Shown piece after piece: positions 21,946-24,375 of a DNA stretch of 64,000 bases; positions within the stretch are counted from its first letter, which is position 1; every line of letters starts with the position of its first letter. Origin of the DNA: Flavobacteriia bacterium. Its GTDB lineage: Bacteria > Bacteroidota > Bacteroidia > Flavobacteriales_D > Crocinitomicaceae. The translations under genes were made by a program, and so were the position numbers. The DNA lies in NCBI GenBank assembly GCA_947450325.1, contig CANFUT010000019.1:1-64000 (forward strand), written 5' to 3'. The notes under the pieces are model-generated. The model was given only the letters and a program-made list of their open reading frames with translations, ran no database searches and was not told the origin of the DNA.

Positions 21946-21979
21946 GTTCTTTCTTTTACCTTGATGTAAAAGAAAGAAC
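21946..21979. repeat. Hairpin repeat E, copy 1
   Basis: Perfect 12-bp inverted arms GTTCTTTCTTTT and AAAAGAAAGAAC around a 10-nt loop, followed by CAAGGCTGCGCAATCAAAGC. It begins 12 bp after the T9SS gene's stop and may double as a terminator. Copy 2 is at 24112-24168. Confidence 0.8.
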
Positions 21980-22093
21980 CAAAGAAAAGATCAAGGCTGC
22001 GCAATCAAAGCTAAAAAATTAAAATTTATGACTAAACAAAAGTAAACTCGCAACAAAGTCTGATTTAGTTGCGAGGTTAGTCTATGCTCAAAC

Positions 22094-22217
22094 AGTACTT
22101 TTGTTTGGTCGTCAAAAATTCCAATTTTTCTTAACGCTTTTATTGCTAAGGCCGGAAGGGTCGTAAGAACTAAAGATATTCTTGCTGTTCTTAGAAAATG
22201 TTGAACTGAAGTTTAAA
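22094..22217 (+). repeat. Dispersed repeat R, copy A
   Basis: Begins AGTACTTTTGTTTGG, contains AACGCTTTTATTGCTAAGG followed by CCGGAAGGGTC, and ends AGAAAATGTTGA plus AGTTTAAA. The 3' part is shared with copy B. Confidence 0.8.
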
Positions 22218-22272
22218 ATAAAGTGCTAGATTTTAGGACTTACAAAAAAGTCTCCGGTCTATTGTCTCAAAA

Positions 22273-22396
22273 AGTACTTTTGTTTGGCCGTCAAGCATTT
22301 GGAATTTTACTTAACGCTTTTATTGCTAAGGCCGGAAGGGTCTTAAAACTTGGGATTTTCTTTGGTTTGTAGAAAATGTTGATCTGTAGTTTAAAC
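22273..22396 (+). repeat. Dispersed repeat R, copy B
   Basis: Same start, core and end as copy A, in the same orientation, offset by 179 bp. The two copies are near identical from the AACGCTTTT core through the CCGGAAGGGTC segment. Confidence 0.8.
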
Positions 22397-22462
22397 TTAG
22401 ACAATAGATTTTTAGAAGAATCTTTCGTCTAATGTCTTCGGTCTCGTGTCTAAAGTCTCAAA

Positions 22463-22530
22463 AAACGCTTTTATTGCTGAGGCCGGAAAGGTTCGTGAAA
22501 TCTTGGGATTTTCGTTTTTTAGATTATTGA
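22463..22530 (+). repeat. Dispersed repeat R, partial copy C
   Basis: Starts directly at the AACGCTTTTATTGCTGAGG core, lacks the 5' AGTACTTTTG part, and shares the CTTGGGATTTTC segment with copy B. Confidence 0.65.
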
Positions 22531-22544
22531 TGATTCGGCATACT

Positions 22545-22635
22545 TCCCCCTTTGGAGGAGAAAAAGCGGTAGCTTTTGACCGCCATGGGCAGCTGCGAAG
22601 CAAACACTCAGCGATAGCGCCAGGACCAAGGGGGA
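22545..22635. repeat. Palindrome-bounded GC-richer element
   Basis: The left end TCCCCCTTTGG (22545-22555) and right end CCAAGGGGGA (22626-22635) are inverted repeats with one extra T on the left. The 70-bp interior is clearly more GC-rich than its surroundings. It looks like a small non-coding mobile or REP-like element, but no second copy exists in this window. Confidence 0.55.
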
Positions 22636-22681
22636 GGACCTTTTCCAAAAAACTTAAAACAAAACTTCAGACACAAGACAA

Positions 22682-24052
22682 TCAGAAAGTCTTCAGTCTA
22701 ATGTCTATCGTCTCAGGTCTAATATCTTTAGTCTTCTCTATCAACGCGCGGCGTTCCGCCAAAAGACTCGCAAGGTTTGAAGATTTTCTCAATTTCGCCA
22801 TTGCACTCAAATCTTGCGCGGTTTGTAACCAGCGGTAAGCAATCACACCGAAAATCGGGATGATGAAATAGTAAATCCACGGAATGAATAAATTGATTGT
22901 TTTCAAGTCATAAAACAAGGGAATGAACACAAAATGATTCAACAAAAGCACCAAAGGAATATTGAAAAGTCCGATGGCAACGACGCCCAACATCATTTTT
23001 ACGGAACTCCAAAAAACAGCTCTTTTGAACGATTTTTCTGTGAAATTTTTGATCAATTTGTATGGCAAATAGCAATGAATCGCTCCCAAAAGCATCAATG
23101 GGAAAAGAAAAATAAGCGAAATCCATGGCAACAAATTGGATTCTTTTTCTTCGATTTTTCTCAAATATGAATCTTTGATTTTCTGCTTTTTGGTCTTTTT
23201 GAAAAAAGCATCTAATTCACTTTTCAAAGTTACCAATTCTTGGTTTTCATTCAAGTTTTGCGCGTTCATCCAAGCGGCAAGTGCTTTGGAGTTTTTCCAT
23301 TTTTCGAACAAAGAAATGTTTCGAATTGGATCTTCAGGATGCATGCCATTTCGCTGCAATCTGCTCACGTATTCGTGAAAAAATACCCAATCCGCATCTT
23401 CTACATGCGTGATTTGTGCCTGTAAATCCAATTCTATTCGTTTCGTAACTTCATTTACAGCCCTTGAAGGGTTTTCCAAATAATCAGCTTTGTAATCATT
23501 CAAACAAATTGGATTGCCGTTTGAAACCAACACGCTTCCGCCCAAATAATTAGGGTCACCATAATTGATGCCAATCGCGGCAATAAAAACTTCTTTTTCC
23601 CAATTCATCGCTTCCAAACTTCCAAATCCAATTCTAGCTGCACCTTTTTTGACAGGTTTCAATCTTCTAATAAAAATGTCGTCTGTAAAACCTTCGCCAA
23701 AAATCAACAAATTGCGTTTTCCCTTCAAGATTTGCGTGCATTTTTTGAATGTTTCATCATTCTTAGCTTTGGTGTCTTCTCCGTCGTGTTGTCTGTAAAT
23801 CGGCAACATGTGCGCCATCCACAAAATCGGTTTCATCGCTTTGGTAAAAACATCTGAACGCGTCATAAAAAATACGATTGGTCGCTGCAAAGAACCCACA
23901 ATCAAAGGATCCATAAACGAAGCCGCATGATTGCTAACGTAAATTGTTCTACCAAAATGTTTGCGCGGTTTGTTGACTACGCGTTGTTTTGGATAATACA
24001 ATCGCAACGAATAAGGCAATGTGAAATACAAAAGAAGATATAAAAATCGCAT
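22682..24052 (-). CDS. 1-acyl-glycerol-phosphate / glycerol-3-phosphate acyltransferase family (PlsC-like)
   Basis: 456 residues. The N-terminal acyltransferase domain (about 35-270) carries SNHAASFMDP, the H-x5-D catalytic form of the GPT2/SCT1-like subgroup, and an FGEGFTDD block corresponding to the EG motif. Three or four membrane helices follow at about 320-425. It should acylate a glycerol-phosphate intermediate of phospholipid synthesis at the inner membrane. The last residues (KTKDIRPETIDIRLKTF) are encoded by the same GTCT-type short repeats that fill the neighbouring intergenic DNA, so the C-terminus appears to have been extended by repeat sequence. The gene is bracketed by directly repeated intergenic elements. 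Confidence 0.8.
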   Translation of the reverse strand: MRFLYLLLYFTLPYSLRLYYPKQRVVNKPRKHFGRTIYVSNHAASFMDPLIVGSLQRPIVFFMTRSDVFTKAMKPILWMAHMLPIYRQHDGEDTKAKNDETFKKCTQILKGKRNLLIFGEGFTDDIFIRRLKPVKKGAARIGFGSLEAMNWEKEVFIAAIGINYGDPNYLGGSVLVSNGNPICLNDYKADYLENPSRAVNEVTKRIELDLQAQITHVEDADWVFFHEYVSRLQRNGMHPEDPIRNISLFEKWKNSKALAAWMNAQNLNENQELVTLKSELDAFFKKTKKQKIKDSYLRKIEEKESNLLPWISLIFLFPLMLLGAIHCYLPYKLIKNFTEKSFKRAVFWSSVKMMLGVVAIGLFNIPLVLLLNHFVFIPLFYDLKTINLFIPWIYYFIIPIFGVIAYRWLQTAQDLSAMAKLRKSSNLASLLAERRALIEKTKDIRPETIDIRLKTF

Positions 24053-24111
24053 TTTTTTAGTGTTTTTAAAAAGCGTTCAAAGGTAATAGATTTATAGTAA
24101 ATTCTGCGAAT

Positions 24112-24168
24112 GTTCTTTCTTTTCACTAACGTGGCTGCTGCGCGGTACCTTGATGCAAAAGAAAGAAC
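24112..24168. repeat. Hairpin repeat E, copy 2, with enlarged loop
   Basis: The same 12-bp arms as at 21946-21979 (24112-24123 and 24157-24168), but the loop is 33 nt instead of 10. The extra bases (CACTAACGTGGCTGCTGCGC and following) look inserted. Downstream CAAGGCTACGCAATCAAAGC matches copy 1, but is interrupted by a second, palindromic insertion. Confidence 0.75.
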
Positions 24169-24280
24169 CAATCCCGATAAATTAATCGGGACAAGGCTAC
24201 GCAATCAAAGCTATAAAAATTAGATTTATAGACAATTAGAAAAGTCTTCGGTCTCGAGTCTAATGTCTTCTGTCTCAAAA

Positions 24281-24375
24281 AGTACTTTTGTTTGGCCGTC
24301 AAACATTCCGAATTTTACTTAACGCTTTTATTGCTGAGGCCGAAAAAACCTCCAAATTTGAGTTTTTCTAAAAAG
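24281..24375 (+). repeat. Dispersed repeat R, copy D
   Basis: Begins AGTACTTTTGTTTGGCCGTC as in copy B and contains AACGCTTTTATTGCTGAGG as in copy C. It diverges after the GAGGCCG segment. Confidence 0.75.

Follow-up and report, generated by a model that had tools for sequence, protein, structure and literature searches.

The direct repeats on either side of an acyltransferase gene in the window, i.e., the whole stretch of 64,000 nucleotides analysed here (bases 1-64000 of contig C19, which comprises 84,330 bases; genome G000, 3.44 Mb in 42 contigs), are best explained, with a probability of about 0.66, as copies of a small, apparently non-coding and non-autonomous interspersed element, which is widespread in Bacteroidota and whose movement would depend on an enzyme acting in trans. 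The behaviour of the element is most likely that of BOX, REPIN and MITE elements. The folded repeat family to which these copies belong possesses a conserved 5' module and matches no Rfam family.

The first-pass annotation of this locus had described a hairpin repeat E followed by a dispersed repeat R, which flank the gene left and right in identical order and orientation, with two further R copies on the left, and this arrangement was recovered in full (Table 1). There, E and R had been taken as separate families; instead, alignment of the copies revealed the second half of E to be complementary to R, hence both are halves of one element and form the two sides of a single long, imperfect hairpin, whereby E comprises the 5' module plus the 5' arm and R represents the 3' arm. 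The count of four unrelated repeat families consequently comes down to the E-R element, the tail that follows it together with GTCT-rich runs, and the palindrome CCCCCTT/AAGGGGG, the latter being found at 8 places of the genome at E<=0.1, parts of it also adjoining E-R copies on C8, C16 and C12. The two extra R-like copies were identified as repeats of the 3' arm plus tail (repeat families D1, D3 and D5), and additional 3' arms occur likewise at C8 of G000 and at loci of the related genomes G001 and G004. The left and the right copy are spaced as direct repeats by 2.2 kb, and the right one is degenerate: with the module covariance model it scores 8.2 bits (filters off) as compared to 41.1 bits for the left copy, and its order is that of 5'-module remains with a loop insert, a linker palindrome, the 5'-arm base, a tail-like stretch and the 3' arm, whereby, according to the alignment of copies, the tail-like sequence replaces the distal 5' arm and the apical loop. 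The palindrome within its linker (TCCCGAT...ATCGGGA) is located at 24172-24191, and an insert of the same kind was seen at the same spot in the C88 copy of G004. Heptamer-like GTCT-rich runs are located at 22421-22458, 22690-22748 and 24231-24289; such runs come after the element tail at several loci of the genus (C7, C16, loci of G001 and G004) and were not called as tandem repeat by Tandem Repeats Finder.

Table 1. Element copies and neighbouring features around the acyltransferase gene (window positions).
Feature	Position	Strand	Basis
Left copy, complete core (5' module and long hairpin)	21946..22154	+	genome search and copy alignment
5' module of left copy	21946..21998	+	sequence reading; covariance model 41.1 bits, E 1.9e-9; pair counts
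Left-module stem S1	21946-21959 with 21966-21979	+	sequence reading
Left-module loop CTTGAT	21960-21965	+	sequence reading
Left-module A-rich linker	21980-21989	+	sequence reading
Left-module ATCAAG, complementary to the loop, then GCT	21990-21995	+	sequence reading
5' arm of the long hairpin, left copy; end is AAACTCGCA	21995..22052	+	copy alignment, fold consensus
3' arm of the long hairpin, left copy (R); GCTCAAACAG to GGCCG	22086..22154	+	copy alignment, fold consensus
3' tail of left copy; second occurrence 22365-22412, 77% identical	22187..22234	+	repeat family D5
Second 3' arm (solo R)	22266..22350	+	repeat comparison, genome search
Third, partial 3' arm	22464..22516	+	genome search
CCCCCTT...AAGGGGG palindromic repeat, separate family	22540..22645	+	genome search
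Acyltransferase gene (PF01553)	22682..24052	-	Pfam; ortholog search
Right copy, degenerate	24112..24342	+	copy alignment; only 8.2 bits with module model
3' arm (R) of right copy	24274..24342	+	repeat comparison, genome search

Searching the whole genome revealed dispersed copies of both halves, with best E-values of 9e-39 (R) and 7e-30 (E), which is far beyond chance. One R copy as query identified 14 places at E<=0.01, while for E and for another R copy as queries the number was 18 in either case at E<=0.1, including some weak or reverse-strand matches. Eleven loci of G000 possess E followed by R, two of which lie in the window and nine on C1, C7, C8, C12 (two), C16, C18 (two) and C24. The first-pass annotation had named repeats unique to this spot and fixed in all strains as the finding that would speak against its proposal; as the copies are dispersed genome-wide and their presence differs between related species, neither uniqueness nor fixation was found.

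A complete copy consists of the conserved 5' module and a hairpin body, which is exchangeable and closed by GGCT...AGGCC. As read from the alignment, the core runs from GTTCTTT, itself paired to the arm of its own hairpin, to GGCCG; in the same alignment reading, in which the end position of the tail is not fixed, the two core ends are not inverted copies of each other, i.e., no terminal inverted repeats were found, and the aligned copies show one short and one long hairpin and not the doubled unit of a REP doublet. The short hairpin is formed by the first half of E, and its loop CTTGAT is complementary to ATCAAG located ten bases past the stem. From the sequence, loop and ATCAAG can pair, and their arrangement fits either an H-type pseudoknot or two mutually exclusive hairpins; since the pseudoknot would have almost no loop 1, its stems may be unable to form together. 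The predicted consensus of the long hairpin counts 57 pairs, 11 of which show a compensated change. Among 15 distinct aligned copies, 95.5% of the cells were paired as compared to 90.7% in shuffles (0/500 shuffles as high), and double-sided changes were found in 43 cells versus 16.1 in shuffles, a value reached by none of 500 shuffles and falling to 1-4 cells when the partner was slid by 1-3 columns. The number of pair types in these 15 copies was not above shuffles (203/500 as high). Within the module, 7/10 stem pairs revealed changes on both sides among 49 modules, a set in which the loop pairing was conditioned on selection, rows being kept only when the loop matched. Because of this, a set of 89 distinct modules was built without the loop-pairing condition in that step, many of its loci having first been fetched by the exact module pattern, and here 497/506 loop cells pair. 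The outer loop pair was found to be TA in 64, CG in 10, AT in 8 and unpaired in 4 modules, while the other five loop pairs are nearly invariant and therefore uninformative on pairing. ATCAAG was present in 128/150 detected hairpin-loop structures, as compared to 16 in the reversed-sequence control. Compensatory changes hence support both hairpins and one pair, the outer one, of the loop pairing. This covariation, like the near invariance of CTTGA/TCAAG, also speaks for a host-functional structured RNA or regulatory element (a 3' UTR element, an attenuator or a small RNA) that became multicopy by chance, an explanation considered unlikely on the evidence of distribution and turnover given below.

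The same genome harbours a sister subfamily of at least 13 copies, identified as matches of identical score. All 13 have the module GTTCCTTTTGCTTGATCAAAACGAACCCAAAAATCAAGGCT in common, this identity following from the way in which the copies were selected, and 12/13 possess the closing CCAAGGCC, while their body is unlike that of the E-R copies. Sister cores are 82-96% identical (mean 89%), with diverging loops. As module and closure are common to E-R and sister copies and the bodies differ, the body was concluded to be exchangeable.

For the gene between the two copies, the first-pass annotation had suggested that the composite direct repeats could mediate its gain, loss or copy-number change, an idea for which two direct copies 2.2 kb apart and the occurrence of exchange between copies can be named. 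Its ortholog was however found to be single in G004 (94% identity), G001 (88%) and G003 (56%), in a place conserved by synteny, these relatives carrying one or none of the repeats. Each of G000, G001 and G003 also possesses a 25-27% paralog, and G002 (73% complete) revealed only a 26% paralog. In G004, the ortholog (L086, C48:18834-20195) contains one in-frame TAG. The degenerate right copy was not found in G004 or G001, both of which kept the gene: the bases between the aligned blocks around it number 399 in G000 versus 38 in G004 and 418 in G000 versus 37 in G001, whereby the G004 site, with a short C-rich stretch, does not represent a clean empty site. G004 carries the left copy, G001 lacks it, and no E-R match was found in G003, which belongs to the same genus and is 99% complete. 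At the matching place of G001, a gene whose 504-aa product bears a sorting tail for type IX secretion (PF18962; 20419-21933 in the window) is missing together with the left element. Since the gene is single and in place while the repeats come and go, the gene is stable and the repeats are variable; the acyltransferase gene would probably be a bystander between two separately acquired copies. Gain or loss of the gene through its flanking repeats is thus not supported in view of synteny and single orthologs, leaving the composite-repeat proposal highly improbable.

Turnover of copies was followed by seeking the flanks of 4 E-R and 13 sister copies in G001 and G004 with a joined query, which yielded 29 locus comparisons. 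In 25/29 of these, no module was found at the compared site (E<=0.01). Nine comparisons revealed 23 bases or fewer (or an overlap) in the relative where G000 has about 300 or more, again with no module at E<=0.01, and the remaining 16/29 lacked a module at the site and a clean junction alike, one flank being missing in some. Only 4/29 possess a module at the compared site, among them the copies shared with G004, i.e., B_L323 and B_L321 (at a contig edge), and B_L324, which in G001 is an internally deleted copy. At the fourth, the C12a site, the E-R copy of G000 corresponds in G004 to a module of opposite orientation with the other body type, and G001, where C12a is one of the nine near-empty sites, retains a tail remnant which looks like the result of a deletion. 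The movement of the element would follow from such patterns of presence and absence rather than from an observed event. No constant target-site duplication was found at the nine near-empty sites, some of which show alignment overlaps of roughly 4, 5 or 16 nt; its absence and the 16/29 sites lacking a clean junction count against the mobile-element reading. That most tested copies are missing from the sister species, on the other hand, argues against a host function, as does the lack of any E-R match in the nearly complete G003.

Exchange between the repeats is supported in another form than originally proposed, namely as body replacement at fixed loci, while neither loss nor duplication of the gene, nor any other change in its copy number, found support. 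Five G004 copies have positional counterparts in G000, defined by flanks on both sides, and three of them are closest to their own counterpart (C47-C24, 98.0%; C88-C12b, 94.0%; C20-C16, 93.5%). In contrast, the body at the G004 counterpart of the left window locus (C48) is 97.7% identical to G000 C8 versus 90.0% to its positional counterpart, and G004 C41, which matches C8 in position, shares 95.7% identity with C16 versus 90.5% with C8. As both flanks are kept while the bodies do not match, the simplest explanation is that dispersed copies underwent gene conversion or were replaced.

For the distribution within the phylum, an exact module pattern was identified in 16/296 Bacteroidota genomes and in none of the control; however, it missed G000 itself, the genome of the window, which is why it was replaced by a covariance model of the 41-base module. 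The E-values of this model are rough and single matches near E 0.0005-0.001 are weak, and a count of 22 modules per genome is to be read as at least 22. At E<=0.001, matches were obtained in 94/296 sampled genomes representing 52/140 genera, while 202/296 genomes had no match at this threshold, which again counts against a host-functional RNA. A pattern scan of GTDB representatives matched at least 120 stretches, Elizabethkingia miricola and Bacteroides luti being among the species with matches; among the 80 matches listed, 72 are Bacteroidota by title, and the other eight derive from a Thermotoga-labelled MAG (2), a Melioribacteraceae MAG (3), a Chlorobiota MAG (1) and uncultured bacteria (2). 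Among the 112/133 copies with 330 bases downstream, on which motif counts were made, the closing GGCC motif occurs in 92/112 (284/1330 control windows), and the two apical motifs (AACTC, CTCARAC) are found together in 47/112 (39/1330 control windows). A strict closing motif in 41/112 copies defined body lengths of 105-282 (median 156), and in 35/41 of these the fold closes GGCT to GGCC; the median body folding z was -4.8 (41 copies) versus -0.4 for 34 control segments, using mononucleotide shuffles. In other genomes, tandem or inverted module clusters were seen, often spaced by about 270-470 bases (L363, L364, L365, L367, L376). With a single query each, partial element matches were found in 4 plasmid records and none in phages. 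Two element copies in other genomes have a Flavo-1 RNA (RF01705; L129:1967-2043, L136:6277-6439) nearby, at a distance of about 0.5 kb or less.

Copies lie mostly between genes and in either orientation. Just 5/68 phylum copies overlap an ORF of >=100 aa, and none of the 24 G000 copies overlaps a retained ORF of >=90 aa. The latter divide into 10 convergent, 12 co-directional and 2 divergent placements versus 8, 27 and 8 for the neighbour pairs of the window (Fisher p 0.05 for convergent versus rest, 0.11 for convergent versus divergent), while the neighbours of 65/68 phylum copies were oriented (-,-) in 22, (+,+) in 19, convergently in 14 and divergently in 10 cases. The module-side gene runs towards the element at 16/24 copies in G000 versus 33/65 in the phylum sample. 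The former bias is a possible orientation preference and would suit a host-functional element, against which the 65 phylum copies speak, as no such preference was seen there. A further point for host function is the C24/C47 pair, the copies of which are 98% identical between species with flanks of 83 and 90% identity; together with the sister modules, identical by selection while their loops diverge, this could, judged from sequence comparison, mean a host function. The conserved module, the C24/C47 identity and the 16/24 bias therefore leave room for host function beside the preferred reading of a mobile element.

A mobilising enzyme was sought among Y1 transposases. The rival reading of a REPIN-like element moved by a RAYT/TnpA-REP (HUH) transposase has in its favour the many hairpin copies and the presence of Y1 genes in all 11 genomes searched, G000 possessing three of them. 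For Bacteroidetes, TnpA-REP subclass 2.6 is reported to possess flanking atypical secondary structures, copies of which occur elsewhere in the genome (PMC6006769), and these structures could be related to the present element, although such a link was not found at 33 Y1 loci. These loci, of whichever TnpA-REP subclass, are part of all Y1 matches in the respective genomes; with up to 1.5 kb considered on each side, the module was found at 0/33 of them (E<=0.1). Among them is the only Y1 match in G056, which itself contains 49 exact module-pattern matches. By eye, Y1 genes of G000 (L052, L054) have different short palindromes around them, which may be their own REPs; this likewise argues against mobilisation of the element by a RAYT. 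The element shares with REPINs the many-copy hairpin repeats between genes and differs in being about 200-400 nt long with a conserved 5' module rather than a short-REP doublet (PMC6006769), and it lacks a linked RAYT gene at the 33 loci. Mobilisation by a RAYT is hence regarded as quite improbable.

The search among neighbouring genes provided no candidate either: from 89 neighbours collected, no Pfam family occurred in more than 3/70 scanned proteins, and the ORFs of 5/17 fetched regions with clustered copies, inspected by eye for an autonomous parent between the copies, were ordinary-looking genes. An integron cassette array consists of genes each followed by an attC-type recombination site, next to an integrase; by comparison, the G000 copies are isolated beside different genes, and the clusters elsewhere lie among ordinary-looking genes (5/17 regions). 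The fact that neither Y1 loci nor shared Pfam neighbours yielded a candidate enzyme counts against the mobile-element reading.

Comparison with Rfam revealed, at gathering score, two tRNAs only in the window and nothing over the element; on six phylum loci two nearby Flavo-1 matches were obtained, both outside the element, and permissive scans gave two sub-threshold matches to animal microRNAs (E 0.29 and 0.57) and none in a canonical copy. The element nevertheless resembles Rfam families in its covarying RNA-like structure. Six stretches of its sequence retrieved only unrelated papers from the open PMC literature, a scope which leaves subscription papers and preprints outside. A MITE is also reported from Cardinium. 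Among described repeats, the BrickBuilt MITE of Porphyromonas gingivalis is comparable in occurring in Bacteroidota, in its long stem-loop and in having neither an internal transposase nor a reported Rfam match (PMC4596501). BrickBuilt is, however, built of 23-nt tandem repeats with IS-like TIRs, a tandem unit of which the present element is devoid, and for it the report gives no BLASTn match outside P. gingivalis, while the present element occurs in many genera (PMC4596501). BOX of Streptococcus pneumoniae, compared by architecture only, is likewise a composite, small, folded interspersed repeat with a variable number of inner modules, over-represented between convergent genes and of slow insertion turnover (PMC3049150). 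An excess between convergent genes has been taken as sign of parasitic mobility for BOX and RUP, and the BOX TIR is described to resemble a host IS, unlike the present element, which has a pseudoknot-type 5' end and for which no IS relation was found in the Pfam scan of 70 neighbouring proteins (PMC3049150). A further difference is the phylum-wide spread of the present element.

For the mobile element favoured here, the following course may be envisaged: a single strand in folded form, either DNA or, by way of reverse transcription, RNA, would transpose, handled by an enzyme encoded elsewhere; copies would afterwards diverge and lose or multiply their 3' arms, and they would overwrite each other by ectopic gene conversion. 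A bolder version, held as a rather doubtful conjecture, assumes a phylum-wide mobile structured-RNA family whose 5' H-type pseudoknot would be read by a Bacteroidota enzyme acting in trans, either a reverse transcriptase or an HUH enzyme, thereby spreading any hairpin body joined to it as a bacterial counterpart of SINEs. With respect to the original observation, a weak hypothesis on the acyltransferase gene is removed. If the preferred reading is right, about a third of Bacteroidota genomes (94/296 sampled) harbour a family of folded repeats without an Rfam entry, which would bear on assembly and annotation as well as on terminator calling and the search for small RNAs. It would furthermore point to a trans-acting mobilising enzyme in a major phylum, for which the loop-to-flank pairing may serve as a sharp handle to find the protein that reads the module.
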